Origin: an uncultured Maribacter sp.
GTDB taxonomy: Bacteria; Bacteroidota; Bacteroidia; Flavobacteriales; Flavobacteriaceae
Assembly: GCA_947498505.1 (NCBI GenBank)
Contig: CANMKG010000001.1
Span: forward strand, 1-64,000
Reading direction: 5' to 3'
DNA length: 64,000 bases
Under the pieces are notes generated by a model that did not search any database, was not told where the DNA came from, and saw only the letters and a program-made list of their open reading frames with translations. A program made the position numbers and the translations under genes. Numbering within the stretch: position 1 is the stretch's first letter; each line of letters begins with the position of its first letter. Shown here one piece after another: positions 12,475 to 43,332 of the stretch.

Positions 12475-12482
12475 TTTAGATT

Positions 12483-15287: not shown

Positions 15288-16313
15288 ATGTCCAAGCTTA
15301 AATTAAAAGATATTGCAAAACATTTTGATGTATCGGTATCTACCGTTTCAAAAGCTATTAATGATAGTCATGAAGTTAGCTTAAGTCTAAAGAAGAAAAT
15401 TCAGTCTTACGCTAACAAGCATCATTATAGACCAAATATGGTTGCTCTTAATTTAAGACAGCGAAGTACCAAAACAATTGGTGTGGTTATTCCAAATATC
15501 CTGAATTATTTTTTTGTAAAAGTGCTGTATGGTATTGAAAAAATTGCTGATGAAAGAGGATACAGCATAGTTACTTGTATTACCAATCAATCATTTGAAA
15601 AAGAAACGAAAACGCTAGAGTATCTTAATACTGGTGTAGTGGATGGCGTTATATTTTCTACCGCCGCTGAAGAGTCTCAATTTGAAAACCACTCTAAGTA
15701 TTTAGAGGAACTAACCGAAAGTAACTTGCCAATAGTAATGTTTGATAGAGCAACAGATTTTGATTCTTGTGATAAAGTTGTTGTCGATGATTTTGAAGCA
15801 GGTTATAAAGCAGCTAAATATCTAATTAAAACGGGTTGTAAAGCATTGGCTATTGCAACCCCAATAAATCAATCTAAAATTAGCAGATTGCGAATTGAAG
15901 GCTACAAAAAAGCACTAAAGGAGTATAATATTTCTTTAGATAAAAAACTCATTGTTCCCATAAGTAACAAAGAAGATATAGAGCTCACCATGTCTTTTCT
16001 ATTAAATTATAAGAAAATTGACGGTATTATAATTTTAGACGAAATCACAGCCGTTAAGGTTATGAAAATAGTTCAAAAACGCGGTTATAAAATTCCTGAA
16101 GATATTTCTATTATTGGATTTACCAATGGTCAATTGTCAAGATATGTATCTCCCTCATTGACCACTATTAGTCAGCATGGAACACACATTGGAGAAACCA
16201 CAGCTAAGATTTTAATTGATAAAATTGAAAGAAAAATTCCCTTTGACGCTTACGAAACCACTACGGTTAAAACTAGTTTGGTGGTAAGAGATTCAACAAA
16301 AGCCTTAAAATAA
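15288..16313 (+). CDS. LacI-family transcriptional regulator
   Basis: 341 residues. The N-terminal LacI helix-turn-helix (KLKDIAKHFDVSVSTVSKAINDSHEVS) and hinge helix (RPNMVALNLRQRST) come first, then a periplasmic-binding-protein-like sensor domain (KTIGVVIPNILNYFFVKVLYGIEKIADERGY through SLTTISQHGTHIGETTAKILI). It is separated from the xylose operon by a terminator and has its own promoter. The operator at 10774 is its likely target; the ligand could be xylose or a PUL-derived sugar. Confidence 0.93.
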   Translation: MSKLKLKDIAKHFDVSVSTVSKAINDSHEVSLSLKKKIQSYANKHHYRPNMVALNLRQRSTKTIGVVIPNILNYFFVKVLYGIEKIADERGYSIVTCITNQSFEKETKTLEYLNTGVVDGVIFSTAAEESQFENHSKYLEELTESNLPIVMFDRATDFDSCDKVVVDDFEAGYKAAKYLIKTGCKALAIATPINQSKISRLRIEGYKKALKEYNISLDKKLIVPISNKEDIELTMSFLLNYKKIDGIIILDEITAVKVMKIVQKRGYKIPEDISIIGFTNGQLSRYVSPSLTTISQHGTHIGETTAKILIDKIERKIPFDAYETTTVKTSLVVRDSTKALK

Positions 16314-17572: not shown

Positions 17573-18367
17573 TTAATTTTCGTTAGAAGGTTTACCAATT
17601 GTAGCCAAAATTCCTCCGTCAACATAAATAATATGTCCATTGACAAAGTTACTAGCATCTGAGGCTAAAAAAATAGCAGCTCCAGCCAAATCGTTAGGGT
17701 CACCCCATTTTCCAGAAGGAGTTCTGTTAACAATAAAATCATTAAATGGATGTCCTTTAATACGTATTGGGGCAGTTTGCGAGGTGGCAAAATATCCAGG
17801 TCCAATACCATTTATTTGAATATTATGTTTGGCCCATTCAGTGGCCATATTTTGAGTAAGCATTTTTAATCCACCTTTTGCAGCTGCATACGCTCCAACA
17901 GTATTTCTTCCAAGTTCGCTCATCATGGAGCAAATATTAATTATCTTCCCTTGTTTTCGATCTATCATATTTTTTACTACATGTTTAGATACAATAAAGG
18001 GACTTACAAGGTCTACATCTATAACTTCTTTAAAATCGTGGACTTCCATTTCTTCCAAAGGAGTACGCTTAATTATACCCGCGTTGTTGACCAAAATATC
18101 AATAGCACCATGATTTTGTTGTATCTCTTGAATTGCTTCAATGACTTCTAATTCTTTGGTGACATTAAATTTAAAACCAAAAGCTTTTATTCCTGCCCTT
18201 TGATATTCTAAAACAGCGTCATCTATTTTTTTTTGCGACGAGTTACCGTTTACAATAATAGTTGCTCCTGCTTTTCCCAATCCCATTGCCATTGCCATGC
18301 CAAGTCCATGAGTACTTCCAGTAATAAGGGCAATTTTTCCATCCAAATTGAATAATGATATTCCCAT
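17573..18367 (-). CDS. kduD: KduD-type 2-dehydro-3-deoxy-gluconate 5-dehydrogenase (SDR)
   Basis: 264 residues, classical short-chain dehydrogenase. The cofactor motif is TGSTHGLGMAMAMGLG (17-32), then LVNNAGIIKRTPLEEM, catalytic Ser in NICSMMSELGRNTVGAYAAAKGG with the YxxxK pair, and C-terminal FLASDASNFVNGHIIYVDGG. The N-terminal LFNLDGKIALITG and NNAGIIKR fit KduD/gluconate 5-dehydrogenase. It would process 5-keto-4-deoxyuronate-derived sugars released by a lyase plus the GH88 enzyme. No KduI isomerase is in the window. The C-rich direct repeat at 18447-18471 lies about 80 nt before the start codon. Confidence 0.82.
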   Translation of the reverse strand: MGISLFNLDGKIALITGSTHGLGMAMAMGLGKAGATIIVNGNSSQKKIDDAVLEYQRAGIKAFGFKFNVTKELEVIEAIQEIQQNHGAIDILVNNAGIIKRTPLEEMEVHDFKEVIDVDLVSPFIVSKHVVKNMIDRKQGKIINICSMMSELGRNTVGAYAAAKGGLKMLTQNMATEWAKHNIQINGIGPGYFATSQTAPIRIKGHPFNDFIVNRTPSGKWGDPNDLAGAAIFLASDASNFVNGHIIYVDGGILATIGKPSNEN

Positions 18368-18758
18368 AATATTTTAATACAGTTTGTTAGTTGTAAGCAT
18401 AAGTTCATGCTTAAAATTAAAGTTATAAATACTAAGTTGATGTTTAGGGGGCTATAACTTCATAATAGGGGTACATATAAGCCTGTATTTTTTGTTAAAA
18501 CAACGCTCTTTACTTTACAAGCATTACCATTGAAAAATAAGTAAGTTAGATTCTTTTCTTATTTGGTAAAAACGCATAACATTTTAAAGTATCTCCAATG
18601 ATATGTCTGTCTATTAGTTGTTTCTTCACAAAATTACTATATAAATTACGAATTGAATAATTTACCCCCCATGATAAGTCTAATATTTTCCTTGGAAGAA
18701 GTTTGTTTTCAATTGTTTTGTGGAAGTAACATTCTTTAAACTAAATAACTTAACAATT
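18368..18758. other. Divergent control region kduD / susC
   Basis: 391 bp without a gene. Besides the kduD operator it contains one more C-rich half-site facing susC (TTTACCCCCCATGATAAG, 18661-18678) whose upstream partner is not convincing. No clear -7 box for susC is visible. Confidence 0.55.
18418..18471 (-). promoter_or_regulatory. Putative HTCS operator and promoter of kduD-DUF4861
   Basis: Read on the minus strand: TACCCCTATTAT (C run at 18471-18468), then AGCCCCCTAAA (C run at 18451-18447), then exactly 21 nt, then TAACTTTA (18425-18418), a -7-like element. The same layout precedes the HTCS gene and the GH88 gene. Direct repeats spaced by two helical turns suit an AraC-type dimer such as the HTCS output domain. 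Confidence 0.6.
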
Positions 18759-21719
18759 ATGAAAAGAACTATTCTCAAATTATTCAAGAGGCACGTAGTT
18801 CCTGTATTTCTATTAGTTGTATTTATGAGTATGAACTCGTATGGGCAATCAACGATTACAGGAACCATAACTTCTTCCGACGACGGCACACCTGTTCCTG
18901 GTGTAAATGTCGTAGTAAAGGGTACATCAAACGGAACTTCAACAGATTTTGATGGAAACTATGCAATAAATGCTTCTTCCAATGACGTTTTGGTTTTTAG
19001 CTATTTAGGCTTCAAAACTATTGAGAGAAGTGTTGGAGGACAATCGGTTATAGATATTGTAATGCAAGTAGATAATGAGCAACTTGATGAAGTTGTTGTA
19101 ATTGGTTACGGGACTCAGAAAAAAAGTGATTTAACTGGTGCAATATCTTCCGTATCTTCCAAAGATTTTGAAAAACAGCCGTTAATAAGAGTTGAAGATG
19201 CATTGCAATCTAGAGCAGCTGGTGTATCTGTTTCTAAGACTACAGGTGCTCCAGGCGGACAAGTTAAAATTAGAATTAGAGGGTCAAATTCTATCTCTTT
19301 TAGTAATCAACCTTTAATTGTTATAGACGGTATTCTAGGGGGAACCTTAGAAAGCCTTAATCCTAATGATATTGCTACCATGGATATCCTAAAGGATGCT
19401 TCTGCATCGGCTATTTATGGTTCTCGAGGAGCAAATGGAGTAGTAGTTATTACAACAAAAAAGGGTTCGGGAAAACCTAAAATTGGTGTAGAGTATTTTA
19501 CTACTATTTCTAATATACCTAAAAAAATATCACTTTTGTCTCCTGAACAATACGCGGAATTATCAGGTACGGAGGTAGTTAATGGAGGTACAGATTATCA
19601 GGATGAATATTTTAAAACGGCTCTTTTAAACAATATTCAGTTAACAGCAAGTGGTAAAGAAGGAAATCTTTCTTACTTTATATCAGGAAACTATGTAGAT
19701 CAAGAAGGGGTTGTTTTTAATAGTGATTATAATAGGTTTTCTTTAAGAGCTAATTTGAATGCCAAGTTTGGAGAAAAACTAAATGTAGGCTTAAATTTAT
19801 TTGGATCAAGAGAGTTAAATCATAATTTGTTTAATGGAGGAGCACGATCTTCATCAGATGCAAGAGGTGGAGTAGCTGGTATTTTAACTTGGGATCCTAC
19901 AATTCCAATTAGAAATCCTGATGGAACATATTATCAGTTACAGTCTTCTTTTGGTAATATATTAGTTAATCCTATAGCGGTACAGTCAGAAAGGAATAAT
20001 AATCGTATTCAAGACAGGTTTAATGCAAATTTGAACATTTCATATGATATTTCGAAAACTTTAAACTTTACAATATTAGGGGGTAGTTTGTTTAGACATA
20101 CCAATGATGAAAATTTTGCAGGAATACCAGCAGGTACTACTGTTCTTGAAGCACAAGCAGGCTTTAGCTCTAGTCGCTTAACAACTTATCAATTAAGTAA
20201 CATTTTATCATGGAATAAAACCTTTGGAAAAACAAATGTGAAATTAACAGGAGTTTACGAACTGCAAGGAAACCAAACAAAGACGTCCAGCGGGAGCTCT
20301 GGAGAATTTGGAATTGGTGGGCTTAGAGACGCATTTTATTTATTAGAGCTAGGTGTTGATCAAGGTGTAAGAGCCAACCAAACTGAAGGTACAATACAAT
20401 CATATGTAGGGAGAGCTGAGTTTAATTATGGAGAAGATTTTTACCTTACTGGGACTATGCGGGTAGATCAATCTTCTAATTTTAGAAAAGACAATAGAAC
20501 CGGATATTTTCCATCCGTTTCTGCAGCATATAACATTAGTAAACTGCTCCCTGAGGAAGGTTTTTTTAATAGTATTAAGTTAAGAGCTGGTTACGGTGAG
20601 GTAGGAAATCAAAATGTTGGAGCCCTAGCAACTTATCCAGATTTGCCCACTGGAAGGGATTTTGCTTTTGATGGTAGTACTCCAGAAATAGGAATTGGTA
20701 ATCCAACATTGAAGGATGAAAACTTAAAATGGGAAACTACAAAGCAAATTAATGCAGGGTTGGACTTTTCGTTTTTAAACAATAGCGTGCAATTTACAGT
20801 AGATTGGTACAAAAAGAATACTACAGATTTATTGTTAAGACAGCCAGTTCCAGATTATAATGGAGGAGGTACAGTACTTAAAAATATTGGTGAAGTTCAA
20901 AATACAGGCTTCGATTTTACGTTAAACACTTACCCTATTACTACGGAAGACTTTTCATGGAATGCTAACTTTAACTTATCTACAGTTGCAAATGAGATTG
21001 TTGACTTAGGAGGCCCAGAACAAATACTTACTGGCGCTGGAGGTGTTAACCCTGGAGGGAGTACATCAAGCTTTTACTCTTTACGAGTTGGAGAATCTTT
21101 AGGTCAATTTCATGGGGCTACTTTTTTAGGAACATGGAAAACAGCTGATGCAGCGGCAAATGGTGATATTGTTGCTGGTACACCAAGATATTTACTAGAT
21201 GAAGAAGGGGAAATTTTACTTTCCGATATCGGAAATGGTACACCGTCATTAACATGGGGACTTAATAATACCATTACCTATAAAAATATAGATTTAAATT
21301 TTGTATTACGTGGAGTACATGATTATCAGGTTTACAATGTCATTTATGCTCAGTTAATGGCTCCTACAGGTGCTGGTTTAGGAAGGCACTCTGATTATAT
21401 AAACAGATGGACACCAGAAAATGAAACAGATATTCCAACAGGAGGGGATTTATTAAATTCCTCTAGGTTTGTAGAAGATGGTGATTTTATTAGACTTAGT
21501 AATTTATCATTGGGGTACACTTTTAAAGATATTAAGTTCATAAGCTCTTTTAAACTGTACGTAAGTGGACAAAACTTATTTACTATTTCTGATTACCGTG
21601 GTTTTGATCCAGAAGTTTCTTCAACGGGTGTTTCAAATAATGATGGAGCTCCTTCATTTGATTTTGGTGCGATTCCAAATCCTAGATCATATACCATTGG
21701 GGCAAGGATTCAATTTTAA
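18759..21719 (+). CDS. susC: SusC-like TonB-dependent outer-membrane glycan importer
   Basis: 986 residues from ATG 18759 (MKRTILKLFKRHVVPVF); an upstream in-frame GTG at 18720 would only lengthen the n-region. Signal peptide to NSYGQS, a carboxypeptidase-regulatory-like domain (TITGTITSSDDGTPVPGVNVVVKG), a TonB-box/plug region (LDEVVVIGYGTQKKSDLTGAISSV, VIDGILGGTLESLNPNDIATMDILKDASASAIYGSRGANGV) and a 22-strand barrel ending GARIQF. It transports oligosaccharides bound by the SusD partner, energised through TonB. The glycan is not predictable from SusC alone. It directly precedes susD (16-bp gap). Confidence 0.96.
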   Translation: MKRTILKLFKRHVVPVFLLVVFMSMNSYGQSTITGTITSSDDGTPVPGVNVVVKGTSNGTSTDFDGNYAINASSNDVLVFSYLGFKTIERSVGGQSVIDIVMQVDNEQLDEVVVIGYGTQKKSDLTGAISSVSSKDFEKQPLIRVEDALQSRAAGVSVSKTTGAPGGQVKIRIRGSNSISFSNQPLIVIDGILGGTLESLNPNDIATMDILKDASASAIYGSRGANGVVVITTKKGSGKPKIGVEYFTTISNIPKKISLLSPEQYAELSGTEVVNGGTDYQDEYFKTALLNNIQLTASGKEGNLSYFISGNYVDQEGVVFNSDYNRFSLRANLNAKFGEKLNVGLNLFGSRELNHNLFNGGARSSSDARGGVAGILTWDPTIPIRNPDGTYYQLQSSFGNILVNPIAVQSERNNNRIQDRFNANLNISYDISKTLNFTILGGSLFRHTNDENFAGIPAGTTVLEAQAGFSSSRLTTYQLSNILSWNKTFGKTNVKLTGVYELQGNQTKTSSGSSGEFGIGGLRDAFYLLELGVDQGVRANQTEGTIQSYVGRAEFNYGEDFYLTGTMRVDQSSNFRKDNRTGYFPSVSAAYNISKLLPEEGFFNSIKLRAGYGEVGNQNVGALATYPDLPTGRDFAFDGSTPEIGIGNPTLKDENLKWETTKQINAGLDFSFLNNSVQFTVDWYKKNTTDLLLRQPVPDYNGGGTVLKNIGEVQNTGFDFTLNTYPITTEDFSWNANFNLSTVANEIVDLGGPEQILTGAGGVNPGGSTSSFYSLRVGESLGQFHGATFLGTWKTADAAANGDIVAGTPRYLLDEEGEILLSDIGNGTPSLTWGLNNTITYKNIDLNFVLRGVHDYQVYNVIYAQLMAPTGAGLGRHSDYINRWTPENETDIPTGGDLLNSSRFVEDGDFIRLSNLSLGYTFKDIKFISSFKLYVSGQNLFTISDYRGFDPEVSSTGVSNNDGAPSFDFGAIPNPRSYTIGARIQF

Positions 21720-21735
21720 TTATAAAAAAAATAAC

Positions 21736-23298
21736 ATGAAAATAGCTGAAATAAAAACAACAAATTTAGGGAGACTTCTGAGTGTCTTTTTTCTCATGGT
21801 TTCTGTATATTCTTGTGCAGATTTGGACGAAGACCCTGGTAAAACACAACTATCACCATCTACATTAAATTCTGTAGAAACATTAGGGGTTTTAGTTACA
21901 GGAATGTATAGAACAGTACAAAATGATGCTAGATGGACCGACTTTTATATTGCTGGTTTTGGAGGAGATGATATTACCACCTTTAGTGCGGGAAATAAGC
22001 AGGGTTTTAGAGAAGCGGATTGGAGAATTCAAACAAGCCTTTCTGAAAGAACTAACAGAGCATGGAGTGCGCCATACAGCATGATTGCTATTGCAAACAC
22101 TGCAATTAACGCTGCACCGGATATAACGGTATCAGAAGAAGATCAAGAATCGTTTAATACAATTATAGGTGAAGCCTATTTTATGAGAGCATTTGCTTAC
22201 ATGCACCTTACAAGAACTTTTGGAGAAGTTGTAATTAACTTAGAGGTAAATAGTTTAGAGGATAGAGAGTTATCTTCCGTTGAACAAGTTTATCAGCAGA
22301 TTGAATCAGATTTGCAACAGGCAGAAACTCTTTTACCAGATGTATATCCGGGAATTGTAGCGATTGGAGCTAGACCTAGTAAAGGAGCGGCTAAAGGTTT
22401 TTTGGCTAGATTATATATGCATTGGGCAGGATTTCCAATAAATGACTCTAGTAAATATGCTATGGCTGCGGCAAAAGCAAAAGAGGTAATTGATGGAGGC
22501 TATGGGTATGGTTTGGCTCCAAGCATGAGAGAAATGTGGACAGTGGCAAATAGGTTTAACCATAACGAAGGTGTGTTTACCATGGTGTTCTGTGATGAAC
22601 TATGTGATATAGGTAATAGAACCACAGGTCGGCTTGGGTTTCCTGTGGATGCTGGTGGTTGGAATGAAACATTTGGAGAAATAGCCTTTTTTGAGGATAT
22701 GGAAGCAGCAGCTATGGCTGAGGGTACAATGGCACGTTTTGAAGATACTTATATTCTTGAAGTAATACCCAGAAGAGATAACCCTAATGGTGCAGATTGG
22801 AGAAATTTTCAAAACGAACCTCACCCTATCTTAAGAAAAGTAGGTGGGGGAGATATGGAAGAGGTAAGTCTAGTGGTGAACAGTACCAACACTCCTTTAA
22901 ACCGTTACTTCATGAGGTATGCTGATGTCCTACTAACATATGCAGAAGCAACTGGTCGTTCTGGAGGTGATGCTCCTGAAGCTTGGGAAGCTTTAAATCA
23001 GGTTAGGAGAAGAGCTGCAGGTTTGGATCCAAATACACCAGATGCCGCAATAGATTTAACTTCGGGTGATTTAGGTGAGTTGGCTTTTACGGAACGTAAA
23101 TGGGAGTTGGCGGGAGAATATGAAAGATGGCACGATTTAGTAAGAATGGATAGAATTGCAGAAGCATTTGCAAATAGATCTCCAGAAGAAAGAGCAGATG
23201 TTGTAAACAATAGAACACCATCAGCAACTGGTCCAGCGGCTTATTTTACACCCATACCACAATCAGAAATAGATCTTTCCCCACAATTAGGAAATTAA
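21736..23298 (+). CDS. susD: SusD-like surface glycan-binding lipoprotein
   Basis: About 520 residues from ATG 21736 (MKIAEIKTTNLGRLLSVFF). An upstream ATG in the same frame, inside susC, is rejected because this start gives a normal lipoprotein signal peptide (FLMVSVYSCADL). RagB/SusD helical TPR scaffold: GEAYFMRAFAYMHLTRTFGEVV, EQVYQQIESDLQQAETLLP, AAKGFLARLYMHWAG, then the C-terminal part with RRAAGLDPNTPD and FTERKWELAGEYERWHDLVRM. It caps SusC on the cell surface and captures the glycan. A terminator follows at 23334. Confidence 0.95.
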   Translation: MKIAEIKTTNLGRLLSVFFLMVSVYSCADLDEDPGKTQLSPSTLNSVETLGVLVTGMYRTVQNDARWTDFYIAGFGGDDITTFSAGNKQGFREADWRIQTSLSERTNRAWSAPYSMIAIANTAINAAPDITVSEEDQESFNTIIGEAYFMRAFAYMHLTRTFGEVVINLEVNSLEDRELSSVEQVYQQIESDLQQAETLLPDVYPGIVAIGARPSKGAAKGFLARLYMHWAGFPINDSSKYAMAAAKAKEVIDGGYGYGLAPSMREMWTVANRFNHNEGVFTMVFCDELCDIGNRTTGRLGFPVDAGGWNETFGEIAFFEDMEAAAMAEGTMARFEDTYILEVIPRRDNPNGADWRNFQNEPHPILRKVGGGDMEEVSLVVNSTNTPLNRYFMRYADVLLTYAEATGRSGGDAPEAWEALNQVRRRAAGLDPNTPDAAIDLTSGDLGELAFTERKWELAGEYERWHDLVRMDRIAEAFANRSPEERADVVNNRTPSATGPAAYFTPIPQSEIDLSPQLGN

Positions 23299-23333
23299 AA
23301 TTGAGTTTTTTGAGTTAGTTTGGTTAATAAATT

Positions 23334-23370
23334 ATCCCTCAGTCATATTTATGATATGAGGGATTTTTTT
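23334..23370 (+). terminator. Terminator after susCD
   Basis: ATCCCTCA (23334-23341) pairs with TGAGGGAT (23357-23364), followed by a T run, so the transporter pair is a transcription unit of its own. Confidence 0.85.
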
Positions 23371-23424
23371 ATTTCTAGATTGGTAATTTTATTAATTTGT
23401 AGCTAAAAGTTTATTATTAACCAT

Positions 23425-26400
23425 ATGAGGATTCCTGAAGTAGTGTATAGTTGTTTAAAAAAATGGATTTTAGGAAAGGTTAACCATAAGGTTGTGATGC
23501 CTCTCGTTTTTATATGTTTTTTTGCTTGTTGCAAAGATTTTAAAGAAGAGGTTAAATCAGATAAACTTTTTACCAAAGTTTCAAGTGAGATTTCTAATGT
23601 TTCTTTTAAAAACGTTTTAAAAGAAAGTAAAGACTTTCATTACTACCAATATATATATTCCTATAATGGTGGAGGAGTTGCGGCTGCGGATTTTAATAAT
23701 GACGGACTAGAGGACTTATTTTTCACATCAAATACAGCGGAAAACAAATTATATTTAAATAAAGGAAACTTTTCTTTTGAAGATATCACAGCTCAATCTG
23801 GTATTAAAAAAAGAAAAGGATTTGATACTGGAGTTTCCATTGTAGACATAAATAATGATGGTTTTCTTGATATTTATATATGTCGTGCGGGTTGGTTTAC
23901 TAATGATGAGAAATATGCGAATATGCTTTATGTTAACAATGGGGATTTAACGTTTACAGAAAAGGGAAAAAAGTTTGGTTTGGATGATAAAAATAGATCA
24001 ATCGCAGCAACTTTTTTCGATTACGATAAAGACGGTGATATAGATGTGTATATAGCAAATAGTCCAAAAGTATCTAAAAATTATAAAAGCATAAGAGATT
24101 TAAAGGAAATACAAGAGAATCCTCAAACATTACAATTAAAGGGCAGTGATAAGCTGTATAGTAATGACGGTAAAGGAAATTTTAAAGATATTTCATTAAA
24201 AGCAGGAATATTACCAGAAATGGCTTTTGGTCTTAATCCGCAAATCGGAGACCTTAATAATGACGGTTGGTTAGATATTTATGTAAATAATGATTTTAAT
24301 ATGCCAGATTTCGCATACATTAATAATGGAGATGGCACTTTTACGGATAAAAAGGAGACTATGTTTAAACATATGTCCTTTTATAGTATGGGGGGAGATA
24401 TTGCCGATATTAATAATGATGGACTGAATGATATGATTTCATTGGACATGAGCCCTGAAGATTACGTAAGGTCAAAAACAACAATGGCAATGACCTCAAT
24501 AAGTAAGTTTCACGAAATGGTTAAAAAAGGGTATCAACATCAATACATGCATAATACCTTGCAATTAAATAACGGAAACGGAACATTTAGTGAAATTGCT
24601 GGCTTATCAGGGATTTCTAATACTGATTGGAGCTGGGCGCCGTTGTTTGCTGATTTTGATTTGGACGGATATCAAGATTTATACATTACCAATGGTGTTT
24701 ATAGAGATGTAATGGATAAAGACGCTATTAACAATATAATGCAAATAATTAGAGAGAAAGGAAAAAAGCCCACACCTGAAGAATTTTTAAAGTATACTCA
24801 GATGCTCCCTCAACAAAAAATTAAAAATTACTTTTTTAAAAATAATAGCAATCTTACTTTTTCTGATACCTCCGAGGAATGGGTTTCTGCTAACCCAACT
24901 TTTTCCAATGGCGCTGTTTATTCTGATTTAGATAATGATGGTGATTTAGATGTTGTGGTGAATAATATAAACGAAGAGGCTACAATACTTAAGAATAATG
25001 CAGTTGAGCAAAAAAAAGGACAATATGTTCAGTTTCTTTTAAAGGGCCCAGAGAATAATCGTTTTGGCAACGGAGTAATTGTGAATTTGTCATTTGCAGA
25101 TGGTACAAAACAAACAAGACAATTAATAACATCAAGAGGGTATTTATCTTCCGTAACCAACAAAATTCATTTTGGTTTAAAAGATTCAAGTATTATAAAA
25201 AAGGTTCAAATAATTTGGCCAGATGGAAAGAAGCAGGAATTAAAAAATATTGATGTAAATCAAACAATAGTGGTACATAGTAAAAGCGCTCTGCTTAACA
25301 GGAGTGTTCCAAATACCAACACATCAAAAATGTTTAGTGAAATTTCACTCAATTATTCTCATAAGGATAGTGTTTTTGATGATTTTGGAATACAACTTTT
25401 GTTACCACATAAATTATCTCAGTTAGGACCTGCGGTAGCAACATCGGATATAAATGCTGATGGAAATGATGATTTATATTTAGGAGGAGGATATATGCAA
25501 GCTGGAAAATTACTTTTGGGGCAATCTAATGGAGAGTTTAAAGAAGTGGAAGTGCTTGACTTTGTTAAAGATAAGGTGCATGAAGACATAGGGTCTGTTT
25601 TTTTTGATATAGATAATGATGGTGACCAAGATTTATATGTTGTAAGTGGAAGCTATGAGTTTTACGAAGGAGCAAAGGAATATCAGGATAGAGTATATGT
25701 AAATAATGGAAAAAATCAGTTTAAAAGGTGCTTAGAATGTCTACCGCAATTTTATACTTCGGGTTCCGTTGTTGTTCCAAATGATTACGACTCTGATGGT
25801 GATATAGATCTTTTTGTGGGAGGAAGGTTAATTCCTGGTAAATACCCGTATGCTCCATCTAGTTATTTGTTAGTTAATAAGGGTGGAAGATTTCAGGTTG
25901 AAACTAAAAAATATGCAGCTGACTTAGAAAAAATAGGGATGGTTACTGATGCACAATGGGTGGATATTGATGGTGATAACGATTCAGATTTAATAGTTAC
26001 CGGAGAGTGGATGGGCATTGAGGTGTTTTTAAACGAAAGTGGCGACTTGGTAAAATCAGAGGCATATACAACTCTAAATGAGACCAAAGGATGGTGGAAT
26101 AAACTATTGGCTATAGATATAGATCAGGATGGAGATATGGATATAGTTTCTGGAAATTTAGGACTTAATTATAAACATCATGCTTCAAGCTCTAATCCGT
26201 TTAAAATATATACAAAGGATTTTGACTACAATGGCACACAAGATATTTTTCTCGCCAAACAATATAAAAATAAAGAAGTTCCAGTAAGAGGAAAAAGTTG
26301 TGCAACTCAGCAGGTACCTGTTCTAGGAAGTAAAATTAAAACGTATCAAGATTTTGCAAGTAGAGATTTAAAAGGAATATTGGGCTCTGGAATAGAAACG

Positions 26401-26802
26401 GCGCTACAATACTCGGTTAATGAATTTAAATCTGGAATATTTTTTAACGATGGAAATGGAGGGTTTTCGTTTTCTCCCTTTTCTAATAATGTTCAAAAAT
26501 CTGTAGTAAATAGTATACTATATGATGATTATGATGGAGACGGAGTTAATGACCTTTTACTTGCAGGCAATAATTATTTATCTGAAATAGAAACCACACG
26601 ATTAGATGGAGGAACAGGGGCATTTTTGAAAGGTATGGGTAATGGAAAATTCGAATATATTTCAAATGTAAAAACTGGATTTTATGTTCAAAATGATGTT
26701 AGACACATGGTTAACTTAAGTTCGTCTTCGAGAAAAAGCATCATGGTAATTAATAATGACGATAGGCATCGTATGTTTAAAATTGTAAGTAATTTAAAAT
26801 AA
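23425..26802 (+). CDS. FG-GAP/VCBS repeat lipoprotein with ASPIC/UnbV domain
   Basis: 1125 residues, with a long basic n-region and a lipobox (ICFFACCKDF); the start could also be ATG 23497, one residue before PLVFICFFAC. Many FG-GAP/VCBS calcium-binding blades: GGVAAADFNNDGLEDLFFTSN, SIVDINNDGFLDIYICRAG, YSDLDNDGDLDVVVNNI, FFDIDNDGDQDLYVVSGS. An ASPIC/UnbV-type stretch lies in the middle (RFGNGVIVNLSFADGTKQTRQ through IIWPDGKKQELKN). Such propeller lipoproteins often accompany SusCD and may be surface glycan-binding; no catalytic role is evident. It is placed between susD and the HTCS gene. Confidence 0.88.
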   Translation: MRIPEVVYSCLKKWILGKVNHKVVMPLVFICFFACCKDFKEEVKSDKLFTKVSSEISNVSFKNVLKESKDFHYYQYIYSYNGGGVAAADFNNDGLEDLFFTSNTAENKLYLNKGNFSFEDITAQSGIKKRKGFDTGVSIVDINNDGFLDIYICRAGWFTNDEKYANMLYVNNGDLTFTEKGKKFGLDDKNRSIAATFFDYDKDGDIDVYIANSPKVSKNYKSIRDLKEIQENPQTLQLKGSDKLYSNDGKGNFKDISLKAGILPEMAFGLNPQIGDLNNDGWLDIYVNNDFNMPDFAYINNGDGTFTDKKETMFKHMSFYSMGGDIADINNDGLNDMISLDMSPEDYVRSKTTMAMTSISKFHEMVKKGYQHQYMHNTLQLNNGNGTFSEIAGLSGISNTDWSWAPLFADFDLDGYQDLYITNGVYRDVMDKDAINNIMQIIREKGKKPTPEEFLKYTQMLPQQKIKNYFFKNNSNLTFSDTSEEWVSANPTFSNGAVYSDLDNDGDLDVVVNNINEEATILKNNAVEQKKGQYVQFLLKGPENNRFGNGVIVNLSFADGTKQTRQLITSRGYLSSVTNKIHFGLKDSSIIKKVQIIWPDGKKQELKNIDVNQTIVVHSKSALLNRSVPNTNTSKMFSEISLNYSHKDSVFDDFGIQLLLPHKLSQLGPAVATSDINADGNDDLYLGGGYMQAGKLLLGQSNGEFKEVEVLDFVKDKVHEDIGSVFFDIDNDGDQDLYVVSGSYEFYEGAKEYQDRVYVNNGKNQFKRCLECLPQFYTSGSVVVPNDYDSDGDIDLFVGGRLIPGKYPYAPSSYLLVNKGGRFQVETKKYAADLEKIGMVTDAQWVDIDGDNDSDLIVTGEWMGIEVFLNESGDLVKSEAYTTLNETKGWWNKLLAIDIDQDGDMDIVSGNLGLNYKHHASSSNPFKIYTKDFDYNGTQDIFLAKQYKNKEVPVRGKSCATQQVPVLGSKIKTYQDFASRDLKGILGSGIETALQYSVNEFKSGIFFNDGNGGFSFSPFSNNVQKSVVNSILYDDYDGDGVNDLLLAGNNYLSEIETTRLDGGTGAFLKGMGNGKFEYISNVKTGFYVQNDVRHMVNLSSSSRKSIMVINNDDRHRMFKIVSNLK

Positions 26803-26850
26803 CTTCTTTGATGGCTGCAATCTTTTTATGTTAATTGTTTCTTGCATAAT

Positions 26851-26910
26851 ATACCCCCTTTATATCGGTTATATGCCCCCCTTTTAAGTTTGGTATGACA
26901 TGTAACTTTG
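26851..26910 (+). promoter_or_regulatory. Putative HTCS operator and promoter (autoregulation)
   Basis: ATACCCCCTTTAT (C run 26854-26858) and ATGCCCCCCTTTTAA (C run 26876-26881), then exactly 21 nt, then TAACTTTG (26903-26910), a consensus -7 box. Layout and orientation match the kduD and GH88 sites. Translation starts 160 nt downstream. Confidence 0.65.
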
Positions 26911-27070
26911 ATAGTAATCAATTTGTATTACCTTTAAAGTAAATACTTTTTACTCTTAAGTAAATTTACCTTCGTACAGGATTTACGGTGTCTTCTATAT
27001 CTAATGGATGAAATGGTTGTTAAAAGTATAAAACTGATTATTGAGCTATGATGAATATGAAGAGAAAAAA

Positions 27071-30000
27071 ATGAGATTAAAAAAGGCGTTTTTGTTTTTA
27101 GTAATATTTATTGGCTCTCTATCCTTATATGCTCAGAAAAAAAACGAATTACATAATAGTATAAAATTCAAACACTTTTCTACAAGCGAAGGACTGTCTC
27201 AGAGCTCAGTTATATGTATTTTACAAGATAGTGATGGTTTTTTATGGTTTGGCACGCGTTACGGGTTAAACAAGTATGATGGGAATACCTTTAAGAATTA
27301 TACATATGACTCTAAAAATACTAATAGTTTAAGTCACAATAAAATTACTGCCCTAGCAAAAGATTATTATGGAACAATGTGGGTGGGAACAGGTAACGGA
27401 CTAAATACATATAATGCCAAAAAAGACAATTTTAAAAGAGTAAAAAAACCTCATAATAAAGAACAATATTATAATAAGGGAGTAAGAGACATTAAGGTTC
27501 AAGATTCTATTTATTTATGGGTAGCTACCGACAAAGGATTAGATAAACTAAACATAAAAACAAATACATTTTTAAGTTATACGCATAACCCTAATAAAGC
27601 TAACTGTATTAGTTCTAATAATATATTATCTCTTTTGTTGGATGATAAGAATAATTTATGGATAAGCAATTCTTCAGGAGTAGATGTGTTTAACCAAGAT
27701 ACCAATACGTTTACACATTACGGTTATCCTAACAATCTATCTCCAAATAGGACAAGAACCAAAACAACAAAGTTATTACAAGATAGTAAAGGAAATATTT
27801 GGCTAGGTTATGATAATGGTTTGGCTATTTATGATGAAAATACAAACTCTTTTAAAGACTATACGTTTAGCGGCTCTCAAGAAAATGTTGTAGTAAATGA
27901 GGAAGTTAGAGATATTTTCGAAGACGACAAAGGCAATCTATGGATTGGAACTTATGTAGGATTGTTCTATTTAGATATTAAAAATCAGCAAGTAAATAAA
28001 TATGTGCACGATGAAGCAGATGTTCATAGTCTCAGCCAAAATTCCGTATATAAAATTGTAAAAGATTCAAGAGGAGATTTATGGATTGGCACTTGGGCAG
28101 GCGGAATAAATTATTTAGATAAAAGCGCAAATAAATTTGTTAATTTCAAAGTGGGGTCTAACAATTTAAATTACAAGGTGGTAAGTTCTATAATTGAAGA
28201 TCAAGCTGGTAATCTTTTAATAGGGACCGAAGGTGGAGGAGTAAATTATCGTACGAAAAATGGAGATTTTAAATATTTAACTCATAACCCAGATAATGAA
28301 AATAGTCTTAGCGCTAATAATGTTAAGGCCATGTTGTTGGATAATGAAAACAATCTGTGGATTGGTACTCATGATGGAGGTCTTAATTTGCGAAAAACCA
28401 ATGGAAAAATCTTTAAATTTCAAAAGTTCGAAAGTTCCTCTGTTGATAGTGTTCAGGTTTCTAATAACCGAATAACCTCCCTAGTAGAAGATAATAAGAA
28501 CCAAATATGGGTGGGAACTAATACAGGAGGGTTGTGTCTGTTAGATAAGAAATCTGGTGTACTTAAGAGAGTAAAAGATTCGGAAGGTGCTTTAGGTGAT
28601 TTTATATATGTAATCTTAAAATCTAGATATAGTAATACCCTATATGTTGGAAGTAACCATGGTCTTACCTTAATTGACGTTCTTACCAAAAAGTTGTATA
28701 ACATAAACTTAGATGGCGGGATAGAAAATAAAGATGCTACGAATGAGGTTATAAGTATTCATGAAGAGTCATCCTCTAGTTTATGGATTGGAACAGAAGG
28801 AAAAGGGCTTTTTAATTATAAATTAGATACTAAGGAAATTCGTAAATATGATATATCTAAAGGCTTATTTAATGAGGTTGTTTATGGCATACTGCCGGAT
28901 GATAGTGGTAATTTATGGTTAAGTACAAACAGTGGACTATTTAGGTTTAATATAGAGAAAGAAGAGTTTAAAAATTTTGATATATCGGATGGAATTCAGG
29001 GGAACGAATTTAATTATGGAGCCTATTTAAGGACGAACAAAGGCGAGCTAATTTTTGGAGGAACAGAAGGTTTAACAATTTTAAATCCTAACGAGATAAC
29101 CATGGATAAATTTGTACCGCCCATTAAAATTACCTCATTCAATTTTTGGAATCAACCTAATATAAATATATCCAATACGACGGAGGAAATAACCCTGAAA
29201 CATAATCAAAATGATTTTAGTATTGATTTTGTTGCGCTAGGATACTCTCAACCAAATAAAAATAAATACGCCTATAAGTTAGTGGGTTTTGATCAAGATT
29301 GGAAATATGTAGGTAATAGTAAAACCGCTGCATATACAAATCTAAATCCAGGGAGTTATGAATTTAAAGTAAAGGCATCTAATAGTGATGAAGTATGGAA
29401 TGAAACACCTGCTGTGATTAAACTAAAAATTTCCCCCCCGCTATGGGCTACATGGTGGGCATATATTATATATTTCATAGCTTCATTGGCAATAATCCTT
29501 ACAATAAGAAGGTATAGTTTAATACATATCAATGACAAAAATCAATTAAGACAAGAACGTTTAGCTAAGGAGAAAATAGAACAGGAAAACAGGTTTAAAT
29601 TGCAGTTGTTTACGAATATTTCTCATGATTTTAGAACTCCATTGACGCTTATTGTAGGGCCATTAAAACGTATGTTAAAAAATGACCAACATGATCCAAA
29701 TATTAAAAAACAGTTGGGTGGTATGTATCGGAATGCAAGCATTTTGTTACAACTAATAAATCAGTTATTGGATTTTAGAAAAAGTGAGGCAGGAAAGCTA
29801 AAATTGGCAGCTTCAAAAGCTAACATAGTGCCATTTTTAGAAAATATAAAACTAGCGTTCGAAGAGTTAGCAAATGAACGTCAAATCACATATCTATTTG
29901 AATCTAAAGAAGAGAATTTAGAATTATGGTTTTCTAAAATCGAAATGAAAAAAGTGGTGCTAAATGTACTATCTAACGCATTTAAATTCACACCTCCGAA

Positions 30001-31201
30001 AGGAAAAATAACATTAAGCGTTAGAGTGTCGGAAGAAGAAATAAAAGCATTTGACACTAAATATATAGAGATTTTAGTAAAAGATAATGGTAAAGGAATT
30101 CCAAAGGAGAACTTAGAGTTTGTGTTTGATCGTTATTTTCAGTTGGGTCAAAAAAATGAGTTAAGGTCTGGAACTGGTGTGGGGCTTGCATTAGCAAAAG
30201 ATATCGTTACGCTTCATAAAGGTAATATTCATGTAGAAAGCTCAAAAGACGAAGGTACTGTTTTCACCATTTTACTTCCAATGGGTAAAAATCATTTAGA
30301 ACCAGAAGAAATCATAGAAGACTCCTATGACGAAGATAGCTTGGAACTTTTGAGTCATTATGAACCAGCCCATGTAAAAGTTGGATGGGTCAAAGGAGAA
30401 ACCAGTATTGCTAAAATGGAGTTCAACAAATCTTTTCAATCGCTTTTGGTGGTAGAAGATAATCAAGAGGTGCGATATTTTATAAAAAGTATTTTTGAAA
30501 CGAATTTCAATGTTTTTGAAGCGAAAAACGGTAAAATAGGCCTTCAATTGGCAGAATCTAATCCAATAGACCTTATTATTAGTGATGTAATGATGCCTAA
30601 AATGGATGGGGTTGAAATGAGTAAAGCTTTAAAATCTAATATTAAAACATGCCATATTCCAATCATATTGTTAACAGCAAGAACTTCATCAAAAATTCAG
30701 AAAATTGGCTACGAAACTGGGGCCGATGCTTATGTTACCAAACCTTTTGATGCAGAATTGTTAAAGTTACAGGTTAAAAATTTATTAAAATCCAGAGAAA
30801 ATTTAGTATCAAAATTTAAAAAAGATATTCTTTTAGAACCTAAAGAACTTACAGTAGTATCAACTGATGAGATTTTTCTTAAAAATGCTATGGATATCAT
30901 TGAAGAAAATATTTCAGATTCAGAATTCAATGTTAATTCGTTTACCAGTAAAATTCACATGAGTCAATCTGTACTTTATAGAAAAATAAAAGTGTTGACA
31001 GGACAGTCAATATCAGAATTTATAAGAACTATTCGGCTTAAAAGAGCTAGTCAATTATTGGTTCAAACAGAAATGGGCGTTTCTGATATTGCCTATGATA
31101 TTGGGTTTAATGATTTAAAGTATTTTAGAAGGTGTTTTAAAAAAATCTTTGATTGTACGCCGTCTGAATATCGAAAGGCAAATACAAAGTCATCTGCGTA
31201 A
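27071..31201 (+). CDS. Hybrid two-component system (HTCS) sensor/regulator of the PUL
   Basis: 1376 residues from ATG 27071 (MRLKKAFLFLVIFIGS); the in-frame TTG 10 codons upstream gives no proper signal peptide. Order: signal peptide; about 14 two-component-propeller repeats forming a periplasmic sensor (e.g. ILQDSDGFLWFGTRYGLNKYDG); Y_Y_Y domain (YAYKLVGFDQDWKYVG); one transmembrane helix (~residues 795-815); HisKA with His852 (NISHDFRTPLTLIVGPL); HATPase (NVLSNAFKFTPPKGKI, GTGVGLALAKDIV); receiver with Asp1172 (LIISDVMMPKMDG); AraC helix-turn-helix (SISEFIRTIRLKRASQLL, IGFNDLKYFRRCFKK). All catalytic residues are intact. It senses an oligosaccharide in the periplasm and activates PUL promoters. 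Confidence 0.96.
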   Translation: MRLKKAFLFLVIFIGSLSLYAQKKNELHNSIKFKHFSTSEGLSQSSVICILQDSDGFLWFGTRYGLNKYDGNTFKNYTYDSKNTNSLSHNKITALAKDYYGTMWVGTGNGLNTYNAKKDNFKRVKKPHNKEQYYNKGVRDIKVQDSIYLWVATDKGLDKLNIKTNTFLSYTHNPNKANCISSNNILSLLLDDKNNLWISNSSGVDVFNQDTNTFTHYGYPNNLSPNRTRTKTTKLLQDSKGNIWLGYDNGLAIYDENTNSFKDYTFSGSQENVVVNEEVRDIFEDDKGNLWIGTYVGLFYLDIKNQQVNKYVHDEADVHSLSQNSVYKIVKDSRGDLWIGTWAGGINYLDKSANKFVNFKVGSNNLNYKVVSSIIEDQAGNLLIGTEGGGVNYRTKNGDFKYLTHNPDNENSLSANNVKAMLLDNENNLWIGTHDGGLNLRKTNGKIFKFQKFESSSVDSVQVSNNRITSLVEDNKNQIWVGTNTGGLCLLDKKSGVLKRVKDSEGALGDFIYVILKSRYSNTLYVGSNHGLTLIDVLTKKLYNINLDGGIENKDATNEVISIHEESSSSLWIGTEGKGLFNYKLDTKEIRKYDISKGLFNEVVYGILPDDSGNLWLSTNSGLFRFNIEKEEFKNFDISDGIQGNEFNYGAYLRTNKGELIFGGTEGLTILNPNEITMDKFVPPIKITSFNFWNQPNINISNTTEEITLKHNQNDFSIDFVALGYSQPNKNKYAYKLVGFDQDWKYVGNSKTAAYTNLNPGSYEFKVKASNSDEVWNETPAVIKLKISPPLWATWWAYIIYFIASLAIILTIRRYSLIHINDKNQLRQERLAKEKIEQENRFKLQLFTNISHDFRTPLTLIVGPLKRMLKNDQHDPNIKKQLGGMYRNASILLQLINQLLDFRKSEAGKLKLAASKANIVPFLENIKLAFEELANERQITYLFESKEENLELWFSKIEMKKVVLNVLSNAFKFTPPKGKITLSVRVSEEEIKAFDTKYIEILVKDNGKGIPKENLEFVFDRYFQLGQKNELRSGTGVGLALAKDIVTLHKGNIHVESSKDEGTVFTILLPMGKNHLEPEEIIEDSYDEDSLELLSHYEPAHVKVGWVKGETSIAKMEFNKSFQSLLVVEDNQEVRYFIKSIFETNFNVFEAKNGKIGLQLAESNPIDLIISDVMMPKMDGVEMSKALKSNIKTCHIPIILLTARTSSKIQKIGYETGADAYVTKPFDAELLKLQVKNLLKSRENLVSKFKKDILLEPKELTVVSTDEIFLKNAMDIIEENISDSEFNVNSFTSKIHMSQSVLYRKIKVLTGQSISEFIRTIRLKRASQLLVQTEMGVSDIAYDIGFNDLKYFRRCFKKIFDCTPSEYRKANTKSSA

Positions 31202-31277
31202 TATATTGTTGTAGAACAAAACGAAAATCTCATGAAGCCCTGATACATATGGTTTTTTAAACTAAAAGAATGATTTA

Positions 31278-31333
31278 CACCCTGTATCGGAACTTAAATC
31301 CACCCTGTTTAGTGTTAAATACTCGGATCTTTA
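31278..31333 (+). promoter_or_regulatory. Putative HTCS operator and promoter of the enzyme operon
   Basis: CACCCTGT occurs at 31278-31285 and again at 31301-31308, 23 bp apart, followed after 20 nt from the last C by GATCTTTA (31326-31333) at the -7 position. TACACCCTGTATCGG resembles the HTCS-gene site TACCCCCTTTATATCGG. The GH88 ATG is 88 nt downstream. Confidence 0.6.
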
Positions 31334-31420
31334 TCCCGCTAATATTGATAGTTAAAAAAGTATAGAAATGAGCTAACCTTCATGCTATATTTTCAAGATA
31401 ATCTTAAAAACATTTATTGA

Positions 31421-32623
31421 ATGAATTTTTTAAAAGGTCTATTTTTTGTCGCTATAACTTGTGCAGCATATTCGTGCAACGAAGTTAAATCTCAGAAAAC
31501 TAAAGTAGTTGAAAATCTGGCTTTAGAAAAGGCAGAAAAACAATTAAGCCTTCAGTTAAAAGTTGCGGAAAAAGCAGAAAGAATTCCTAGAACTGTAAAT
31601 TCAAAAGGAGAAATACACTGGACGCATAATAATTTTGATTGGACAGAGGGTTTTTTTCCAGGTAGTTGTTGGTACTTGTATGAATATACTAAAGATGATA
31701 AATGGAAAAATGCAGCAGAAAAGTTTCAGTCTTTGTTTGAAAATCATAAATATTTAACTACAAATCATGATTTAGGCTTTGTTTTTAATTGCTCTTTTGG
31801 TAATGGTTACCGCCTAACAGGAAATAAAGAATATGTGAATGTCTTAACAACCGCAGGAGATTCTTTGTTATCAAGATATAACCCAGTCGTAGGTTGTATA
31901 CAAAGTTGGGATGTTGTAAATGGCTGGCAATCTAAAAAAAACTGGATGTTTCCTGTGATTATTGATAATATGATGAATTTAGAGTTGTTGTTTGAACTTA
32001 CTAGATTAACAGGTGACAAAAAATATGAAGAGGTAGCTATAACACATGCGAATACTACATTGAAAAATCATTTCCGTCCAAATAACAGTTCCTATCATGT
32101 ATTGGACTACGATCCAGAAACAGGTGCTGTAAGAAGCAAACAAACAGCACAGGGATTTGCAGATGAAAGTTCATGGGCAAGAGGGCAAGCATGGGGTTTA
32201 TACGGATATACTGTTTGCTATAGGTATACAAAAGATATTAGATATTTAGAACAGGCGAATAAAATAGCTAAGTTTATAATGAAATATGAAGGTTTGCCAG
32301 ATGATGGTATTCCCTATTGGGATTATAATGCTCCAAATGTGCCCAATGAGCCTAGAGATGTATCAGCAGCAGCTATTACGGCATCAGCATTAATTGAGTT
32401 AGATGGTTATACTTCTGAATCATATTTACCATTTATTGATAAAGTTTTAAATACTCTTGCAACTGCTAAATACACCGCAGAATTGGGTAAAAATCATAAT
32501 TTTATTTTAATGCATAGTGTGGGTAGCATACCGCATAATAACGAAATAGATGTTCCTCTAAATTATGCGGATTATTATTACCTAGAGGCCTTAATGCGAT
32601 ATAAAAAGTATAAACTAGAATAA
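31421..32623 (+). CDS. GH88 unsaturated glucuronyl hydrolase
   Basis: 400 residues; lipoprotein-like signal peptide (AYSCNEV). An (alpha/alpha)6-barrel enzyme of GH88: THNNFDWTEGFFPGSCWYLYE, catalytic Asp117 in NHDLGFVFNCSFG, Asp182 in PVIIDNMMNLELLF, SSWARGQAWGLYGYTVCY and GIPYWDYNAPNVPNEPRDVSAAAI. It removes the 4,5-unsaturated uronic acid that a lyase leaves at the non-reducing end, giving 5-keto-4-deoxyuronate. This links the PL8-like lyase to KduD. It is the first gene of the enzyme operon and is 9 bp before the beta-helix gene. Confidence 0.92.
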   Translation: MNFLKGLFFVAITCAAYSCNEVKSQKTKVVENLALEKAEKQLSLQLKVAEKAERIPRTVNSKGEIHWTHNNFDWTEGFFPGSCWYLYEYTKDDKWKNAAEKFQSLFENHKYLTTNHDLGFVFNCSFGNGYRLTGNKEYVNVLTTAGDSLLSRYNPVVGCIQSWDVVNGWQSKKNWMFPVIIDNMMNLELLFELTRLTGDKKYEEVAITHANTTLKNHFRPNNSSYHVLDYDPETGAVRSKQTAQGFADESSWARGQAWGLYGYTVCYRYTKDIRYLEQANKIAKFIMKYEGLPDDGIPYWDYNAPNVPNEPRDVSAAAITASALIELDGYTSESYLPFIDKVLNTLATAKYTAELGKNHNFILMHSVGSIPHNNEIDVPLNYADYYYLEALMRYKKYKLE

Positions 32624-32632
32624 TTAATGTAA

Positions 32633-34189
32633 ATGAAATCAAAAGGTATTATTCTAGCTATTTTGTTGCTTAATATTGGAGTTGCTTTCGGGCAAAAAAG
32701 TGCAATTTGGAATGATTTTGTTTCAGCAAAAAATACAGCAAAAGAAGCTGTTTTACCTGATTTTTCGTACGCTGGGTATAAATTTAGTGAAGAGGCAATA
32801 CCAAAGGTTAATTATAAAGTTTTTAATGTTCTTGATTTTGGCGCAGTTCCCAATGACAAAATATCTGATAAGAGTTCGATAAAAAAGGCTATTAAAGCTG
32901 CAGAAGAAAATGGTGAAGGGGTTATTTTTTTTCCAAAAGGGAAATATTGGATTAATACCCCAAAGGACGACCAAAGCTTGATTACTGTAAAATCGTCGAA
33001 AATTGTATTTAGAGGAGAGGAAGAAAAAAAAACCATTTTATTTTTTGATAAGGATTTACCACCGGCGGACCCGGAAAAATTTTGGACATGTCCTTCAGCG
33101 ATTAAGGTTCAAAGCTTAGATGAAAATGAATATATTACCAAAGTAATAGCTGATGCTAATAGGGAAACGCATCGTATTAAAGTTGAGGATGCTTCAAGAG
33201 TAAAAATAGGAGATTGGCTGGTAATTCAGGTTCTTAATAACGATAAAGATTTGGTAAAGGAAGATTTAGGCACTTTAAAACCAGATAAAGAATGGACATC
33301 TATTTTAGAAAAAGGTGTAAAAGTTAATGAGGTTCATCAAGTAGCATCTGTAAATGGTAATGAAATTGAATTTACGTCATCAATTCATTATAAAATAAGA
33401 GCAAAACATAACTGGGAGGTTTATAGCTTTGCTCATGTAGAAAGTATTGGATTTGAAAACATAACGTTTGAAGGGAATTGGACTAAGAAATTTATTCATC
33501 ATCGGTCTGCCCAAGATGATGGTGGTTGGAGTATTTTAAAAATTTCTAATGCCGTTAATTCATGGGTTAAGAATTGTACTTTTAAAAACGTGAATAATGC
33601 AGCTAGTTTTTCTCATTCCGCGGCTTCTACAGTGTTAAACGTAACAATTGAAGGAAATTTGGGGCATAGTGCTATTCATTCTTCTCGTTCAACAAATATT
33701 TTAATTGCAAATAGTAATGATATTGCAGGGATGCACCATTCTTTTGGTGTTGATGGAAATTCTTCAGGAACTGTAATTTGGAGGTCTAAGTATGCTTCTC
33801 ATACGAGTTTTGAATCCCATGCTTCGCAGCCTCGTTGTACTCTTTTAGATAACGTTGAAGGAGGTTTTTTTCAAGGTAGGGCAGGAGGGGCAAGATTTAA
33901 TTTACCAAACCATGGAAAACATCTTGTTTTATGGAATTTTAAGGAAACGGATGAACCTGAAGAGAATTTTAGATTTGTAGCAAATGATACTTGGTACTGG
34001 CGAATTGTACCTCCAATAATTGTTGGGTTTCATGGAGCTGGCACAACATTCAAAAAAGATGAAGTAGAAGTTTTGGAGAGTTTAGGTAAGCCTGTAACTC
34101 CAGAATCATTATTTGAAAAACAATTAGAGCTTAGGTTAGGAAAGCTTCCACAATGGATAGTAAATATTAAAAATAAACCAAAGCTATAA
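32633..34189 (+). CDS. Secreted right-handed beta-helix protein, pectate-lyase-3/DUF4955 type
   Basis: 518 residues with signal peptide (NIGVAFGQKS). The N-terminal FNVLDFGAVPNDKISDKSSIKKAIKAAEENGEGVIFFPKGKYWI is the classic Pectate_lyase_3 start of a parallel beta-helix; Asn/Ser-rich coils follow (WVKNCTFKNVNNAASFSHS). The C-terminal region (HTSFESHASQPRCTLLDNVEGGFFQGRAGG, NHGKHLVLWNFKET, WIVNIKNKPKL) looks like DUF4955. It may be a lyase or glycosidase acting on a uronate or galactose-containing chain; no activity is assigned. It sits next to GH88 in the enzyme operon. Confidence 0.78.
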   Translation: MKSKGIILAILLLNIGVAFGQKSAIWNDFVSAKNTAKEAVLPDFSYAGYKFSEEAIPKVNYKVFNVLDFGAVPNDKISDKSSIKKAIKAAEENGEGVIFFPKGKYWINTPKDDQSLITVKSSKIVFRGEEEKKTILFFDKDLPPADPEKFWTCPSAIKVQSLDENEYITKVIADANRETHRIKVEDASRVKIGDWLVIQVLNNDKDLVKEDLGTLKPDKEWTSILEKGVKVNEVHQVASVNGNEIEFTSSIHYKIRAKHNWEVYSFAHVESIGFENITFEGNWTKKFIHHRSAQDDGGWSILKISNAVNSWVKNCTFKNVNNAASFSHSAASTVLNVTIEGNLGHSAIHSSRSTNILIANSNDIAGMHHSFGVDGNSSGTVIWRSKYASHTSFESHASQPRCTLLDNVEGGFFQGRAGGARFNLPNHGKHLVLWNFKETDEPEENFRFVANDTWYWRIVPPIIVGFHGAGTTFKKDEVEVLESLGKPVTPESLFEKQLELRLGKLPQWIVNIKNKPKL

Positions 34190-34505
34190 GATTGCGTTTT
34201 GTTACTTAGTTTAGGTAATAAGGATAGAATGCCTTCTATTTTAGGGACAAGACTATTTTTAAATTTAGAAAAGACTTATTCAATAGTATTTGATTTGGTC
34301 ACTTTCATTATGATAATATAATTCCAGATTCTACAGAACCTAACCACCCTAAAAAATACCCCTAAAACGATTAAAATACGGCGAACTTGTATAATCGTTT
34401 AAATAGAAAAAAAATTTAAATATTAAAAGGAATAAAGAGCGCTAAAGACGTATAAATAATTTTAGTAAAAACCTCGATAGCTCTAGCGTAAAAAAGAAAA
34501 AATCA
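34190..34505 (+). promoter_or_regulatory. Intergenic region with a weaker HTCS-like site before GH2
   Basis: 316 bp without a gene. TACCCCTAAAA (C run 34359-34362) is followed after 20 nt by GAACTTGT (34383-34390) where a -7 box is expected, the spacing seen at the GH88 promoter. The upstream half-site is degenerate (GAACCTAACC at 34336-34345, with CACCCTAAA at 34345-34353). Probably a second start point for the distal enzyme genes; tentative. Confidence 0.4.
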
Positions 34506-37786
<3,281 letters not shown>

Positions 37787-43307: not shown

Positions 43308-43332
43308 GACTTAAATAAAATAAATCTGATTT

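Follow-up and report, generated by a model that had tools for sequence, protein, structure and literature searches.

Paired C runs adjoining promoters as candidate operators of an HTCS regulon in a Maribacter polysaccharide utilisation locus

The promoters of kduD, the HTCS gene and GH88 in a polysaccharide utilisation locus have the same layout, i.e. two C-rich half-sites in the same orientation, 21–23 bp apart, followed after 20–21 nt by a -7-like box. The locus lies in the window, which denotes the whole 64-kb stretch of DNA that was analysed. The C-run pairs are most probably direct-repeat operators of the HTCS encoded at 27071–31201, which would act by phosphorelay-driven dimer binding and polymerase recruitment. 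Both the layout at these three promoters and the proposal of one regulon with promoter-adjoining direct repeats, with the HTCS as its presumed binder, come from an earlier note and held up: the sites recur with the same layout, orientation, and spacing, and as far from the -7 box, at HTCS orthologs of relatives, and AT-rich loci around other HTCS relatives have no peak at this spacing.

Results

The locus and its candidate operators

The minus strand of the locus carries DUF4861 and kduD. After kduD follow susC, a gene that we take to be susD (a name not based on a family search), a gene for an FG-GAP/ASPIC protein, the HTCS gene, GH88, DUF4955 (starting at 32633, 10 nt past the GH88 end), GH2, GH95, and a gene for a PL8-type lyase. 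In a domain search, the sensor, HisKA, HATPase_c, receiver, and AraC-type HTH of the HTCS were found on a single chain, which is characteristic of the class. Its receiver contains a CHIP stretch; according to excerpts of PMC11253607, an S/CHIP stretch is conserved in HTCS receivers and tied to phosphorylation-gated DNA binding.

The candidate operators and their -7 boxes are compiled in Table 1. A matrix was built from 11 foreign sites with spacings of 21–23 bp, and both strands of the window were scanned. The HTCS, kduD, and GH88 promoters had the three highest values (31.8, 24.7, and 21.6, respectively), followed by a coding match at 61146 with 18.8. The susC promoter is a further one with the layout, which the earlier note had overlooked. 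Its second half-site is degraded and, with a single good half-site, its value of 13.6 is below that of the coding match. In the susC promoter of the relative G002 (L113), the two half-sites are 22 bp apart, and the second reads CCC. The susC layout bears on the regulon reading because the HTCSs BT4124 and BT4663 have been tested on susCD promoters as their targets (excerpts of PMC11253607).

A weaker copy at GH2 had also been claimed. Its CCCC, the distance of 21 nt and the -7-like box are present, but the distal half-site is merely ACCT, so that the candidate is not separable from background. It is absent among the 16 matrix matches listed for the window, and GH2 was rejected as an extra target.

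Table 1 Candidate operators, -7 boxes, and genes in the window (half-site spacing is counted from last C to last C)
Feature	Position	Strand	Description
kduD-like dehydrogenase	17573..18367	-	proposed target; name from the earlier note, not from a family search
kduD -7 box TAACTTTA	18425-18418	-	21 nt beyond the proximal half-site; 5/6 TAnnTTTG matches
kduD candidate operator	18447..18471	-	CCCC 18471-18468 and CCCCC 18451-18447, spacing 21 bp; matrix rank 2 in the window
susC candidate operator	18665..18691	+	CCCCCC 18665-18670 and degraded CC 18690-18691, spacing 21 bp; matrix rank 8
susC -7-like box TTGTTTTG	18713..18720	+	21 nt beyond the CC half-site
SusC-like TonB-dependent receptor	18759..21719	+	proposed target
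HTCS candidate operator	26854..26881	+	CCCCC 26854-26858 and CCCCCC 26876-26881, spacing 23 bp; matrix rank 1 in the window
HTCS -7 box TAACTTTG	26903..26910	+	21 nt beyond the second half-site; 6/6 TAnnTTTG matches
HTCS	27071..31201	+	Reg_prop propeller, Y_Y_Y, HisKA, HATPase_c, Response_reg, AraC-type HTH_18; proposed binder
GH88 candidate operator	31278..31308	+	CACCCTGT twice, at 31278 and 31301, spacing 23 bp; matrix rank 3 in the window
GH88 -7-like box GATCTTTA	31326..31333	+	20 nt past the second CACCCTGT, counted from its last C; 4/6 TAnnTTTG matches
GH88	31421..32623	+	proposed target
Weak GH2 candidate	34338..34362	+	ACCT and CCCC 34359-34362, 22 bp apart
GH2 -7-like box GAACTTGT	34384-34391	+	21 nt beyond CCCC; 3/6 TAnnTTTG matches, counted by eye

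Spacing at HTCS orthologs

Orthologs of the HTCS were searched for in 149 relatives, with up to four candidates being scored in each genome, and 9 to 38 kb of DNA were taken around each ortholog. Among the matches listed, the identities to the window HTCS are 94% in G002, 60% in G079, 55% in G004, 52% in both G005 and G008, 48% and 47% for two proteins in G010, 48% in G009, and 45% in G026; the remaining listed matches have 44% or less. Homologs of GH88, DUF4955, kduD or DUF4861 are encoded beside the orthologs in varying sets. In G002, the closest relative, homologs of GH88, DUF4955, and GH95 are present downstream of the HTCS (L114). The GH2, PL8 and 43333 genes of the window locus (34506–37571 and 40263–44421) are missing from the G002 locus, in which they have no match at E 1e-20.

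We determined the spacing of C runs near eight HTCS orthologs from seven genomes, in a set of 80 promoters that did not include the window and G002. Runs of at least three Cs were paired if one of them had at least four, and pairs with 8–60 between the last Cs were counted. Eleven of the 25 pairs are 21–23 bp apart, compared with a mean of 0.65 after dinucleotide shuffling and with none of 500 shuffles as high, in a test that was not blind, i.e. the rule was fixed after the ortholog promoters had been read. To the 11 sites, G079, G004, G008, G010, and G009 contribute two each and G026 one, six genomes in all; under this strict rule, G005 and the second G010 locus (G010b) have none.

That the resemblance in the window is a chance likeness among C-rich stretches would fit with the small number of strong sites, only three, and with a core that is short and of low complexity. 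The recurrence in six other genomes with the same spacing, orientation, and -7 distance makes this extremely unlikely, and the ortholog spacing test largely refutes it, with the reserve just given about the rule.

Distance to the -7 box

The -7 box of flavobacterial sigma-A promoters is TAnnTTTG at -12 to -5 (excerpts of PMC9723704). At the 11 foreign sites, the mean match to this box peaks 20–22 nt past the proximal half-site (2.82, 3.00, and 3.09 of 6), with the next-best mean, 2.73 at offset 11, little under the peak of 3.09. Matches of at least 5/6 occur in six cases at offsets 20–23 versus one at the other 36 offsets, so that the -7 box keeps a constant distance to the candidate operator. 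Given the usual distance between the -33 and -7 elements, the peak therefore places the gene-proximal half-site at the -33 position. Earlier, the distal half-site had been assigned to this position at constant spacing; the constant spacing was retained, and the assignment has to be moved to the proximal half-site. As a second conserved element, GG 5–15 nt past the distal C run was found at four of 15 sites, compared with a background fraction of 0.166, which by eye is not significant.

Specificity for the HTCS group

For comparison, we analysed the loci of HTCS relatives, the tail of the list being generic hybrid kinases, together with the paralog loci of the own genome. Conceivably, C-run pairs belong to the promoters of such genomes in general, e.g. 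as an upstream polymerase-contact element, with no specific regulator bound. Such a general feature could explain the mild excess at 21–23 bp that is seen when GC-richer loci are kept, i.e. 22 of 172 pairs in 449 promoters, about 10 being expected for an even distribution. This excess is carried largely by few loci (e.g. L047, L082, and L076) and may reflect either composition or other HTCSs with C-containing sites, which were not told apart. It vanishes at loci of 42% GC or less, with two of 32 pairs (37 loci, 255 promoters). In addition, no pair at 21–23 bp is present in the 14 promoters of three HTCS paralog loci from the own genome (one, six, and seven promoters, respectively), and at a fourth the best promoter match among the top three scores 11.1. 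A general promoter feature is thus an improbable explanation, and sites specific for this HTCS group are preferred.

The matrix scans differentiate between the groups as well. When the tested genome was left out of training, the top match was a promoter in eight of nine loci sets, promoters being 2–6% of the stranded sequence. G002 was not counted in this test, though its top match is also a promoter. In the sole failing set, G010b, the top match is 50 nt from a contig end and points outwards. Matches among the top three are in promoters in 17 of 27 cases for the ortholog sets, versus nine of 102 for the other HTCS relatives (34 AT-rich loci).

The genome scan against a control, by which the earlier note had wanted its motif to be judged, was not passed by the bare core. 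CCCT-N17..19-CCCT has 93 matches in the genome versus 82 for the reversed pattern, a similarity that also speaks for the general promoter feature, and the bare core was rejected as a genome-wide regulon finder. The core together with a -7 box gave 10 rows (nine places) versus three in the control, and three of the nine places are the kduD, HTCS, and GH88 promoters. The case for the motif rests on its placement and its recurrence in relatives, not on the bare count.

Remote regulon members were searched for in 50 stretches of the own genome, chosen by eye from the 93 for an A or C preceding the proximal half-site, and none was convincing in a scan that would miss sites as weak as that of susC. 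Eight of the 11 rows scoring at least 17 are coding; the noncoding ones are two near-identical copies in L214 and one in L206 without a downstream gene in the stretch. The L214 copies (198–1376, G000:C6) belong to two neighbouring, diverged small lipoprotein-like genes with a near-identical upstream region containing a C-run pair 21 bp apart. A different arrangement was observed in L082, i.e. five tandem CCC(C)ATAGTT-like words with a 22-bp period in the promoter of a minus-strand gene at 14089–14830, which adjoins another HTCS relative.

Genes preceded by sites

Conservation upstream of orthologous genes is seen for GH88 and susC, not for the HTCS gene or kduD. With a matrix trained on all sites, the GH88 site was detected in seven of eight upstream regions, the own one and that of G002 included, and is missing only in G026. 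A susC site is present in G079 and, in weaker form, in the own genome, G002, and G005; the susC-like genes of G026 and G010a also have a pair, which in G010a is 24 bp apart. With the same kind of matrix, kduD has a site of its own in the window and in G002, and none upstream in five relatives. The kduD operons of G079, G005, G010b, and G009 are without a listed C-run pair, and in G008 the site precedes the KduI gene just upstream of kduD. Other genes behind pairs in relatives encode an alpha-L-fucosidase (G004) and a sulfatase (G009), and pairs with shorter C runs precede the genes for a DUF5060 protein (G079) and for a protein without a Pfam match (G010b).

Autoregulation of the HTCS had been suggested as well. 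Strong sites precede the HTCS gene in the window and in G002 (33.5 and 32.4), in agreement with this suggestion, but the eight other upstream regions have values of 7.8 or less and thus no conserved operator. Autoregulation would therefore be a local feature, confined to the lineage of the window and G002.

The distribution of sites also bears on a second regulator of the locus, a LacI-family protein encoded in the window at 15288–16313, to which the sites might belong instead. LacI homologs with 32–36% identity are indeed encoded in the fetched DNA of six of eight distant ortholog sets. However, the sites are not accompanied by a linked LacI gene everywhere: the stretches of about 38 kb from G010a and G026 contain sites and no LacI homolog at E 1e-20, which speaks against the LacI neighbour as binder. 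Furthermore, LacI-family operators are palindromes, in contrast to the direct repeats found here. We regard binding by the LacI-family protein as quite unlikely and retain the HTCS as the probable binder.

Discussion

The proposed mechanism would start with the propeller of the HTCS, which may sense an oligosaccharide of the target polymer, whereupon the kinase would phosphorylate the fused receiver. Phosphorylation would free the AraC-type domains for formation of a head-to-tail dimer on the DNA. Each CCCCT half-site would hold one subunit, and both subunits would sit on the same DNA face, separated by about two helix turns. The bound dimer would then recruit RNA polymerase to promoters in which a -7 box is present and the usual -33 box is lacking. 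Predicted targets are susCD, kduD-DUF4861, GH88-DUF4955, and, in the lineage of the window, also the HTCS gene. In this scheme, we infer the HTCS as binder, its dimerisation, the activation, the operon extents, and the inducing sugar. Genes that we take to be homologs of xylulose kinase and xylose isomerase adjoin the locus in the window (10990–13808) and in G079 (L116, 1098–3900), on opposite sides; in view of these neighbours, the target polymer may perhaps release xylose.

The arrangement in the window resembles that at I1-I2 of araBAD, where Escherichia coli AraC binds directly repeated half-sites with a spacing of about 21 bp and the proximal half-site is at the -35 region. In contrast to the HTCS, AraC is a one-component sugar sensor without a phosphorelay and has another half-site.

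For each of 16 HTCSs of Bacteroides thetaiotaomicron, a motif has been predicted that consists of a direct repeat, and the distance between the two sites averages 21 bp (Ravcheev et al. 2013, PMC3878776, excerpts). Like these operators, the window sites are two-site direct repeats that lie in promoters of the regulator's own cluster, with same-orientation half-sites at 21–23 bp, and the order of the regulator domains is common to the Bacteroides HTCSs described in those excerpts and the window HTCS. The half-site in the window is CCCCT, and the likeness concerns the repeat layout. Binding of the BT4124 and BT4663 response regulators to susCD promoters has been examined by mobility shift (PMC11253607, excerpts). 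These regulators resemble the window HTCS in the AraC-type output domain and in the S/CHIP stretch of the receiver (CHIP in the window), and differ in that their promoter binding was assayed, whereas binding by the window HTCS is predicted from the sequence. In a search of the literature that covered titles and the openings of abstracts, with most subscription papers outside it, no study of HTCS operators in flavobacteria was found. Judged by the excerpts of PMC3878776, the window sites appear to be a new example of a type of control already predicted in gut Bacteroides.

A broader interpretation is possible, but we advance it only tentatively. This group of HTCSs might be distinct in its DNA specificity (CCCCT, 22 bp, CCCCT), with sites that replace the -33 box and yield switch-like promoters largely within one cluster, and one lineage might recently have gained positive autoregulation via a new operator of the HTCS gene.

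The layout provides a sequence rule for locating the targets of one group of glycan-sensing regulators, tied to promoter geometry, and from the rule it can be predicted which genes would be induced jointly by the polysaccharide. With an operator of the HTCS gene in two close genomes, and none at eight other orthologs, a gain or loss of autoregulation is directly testable.
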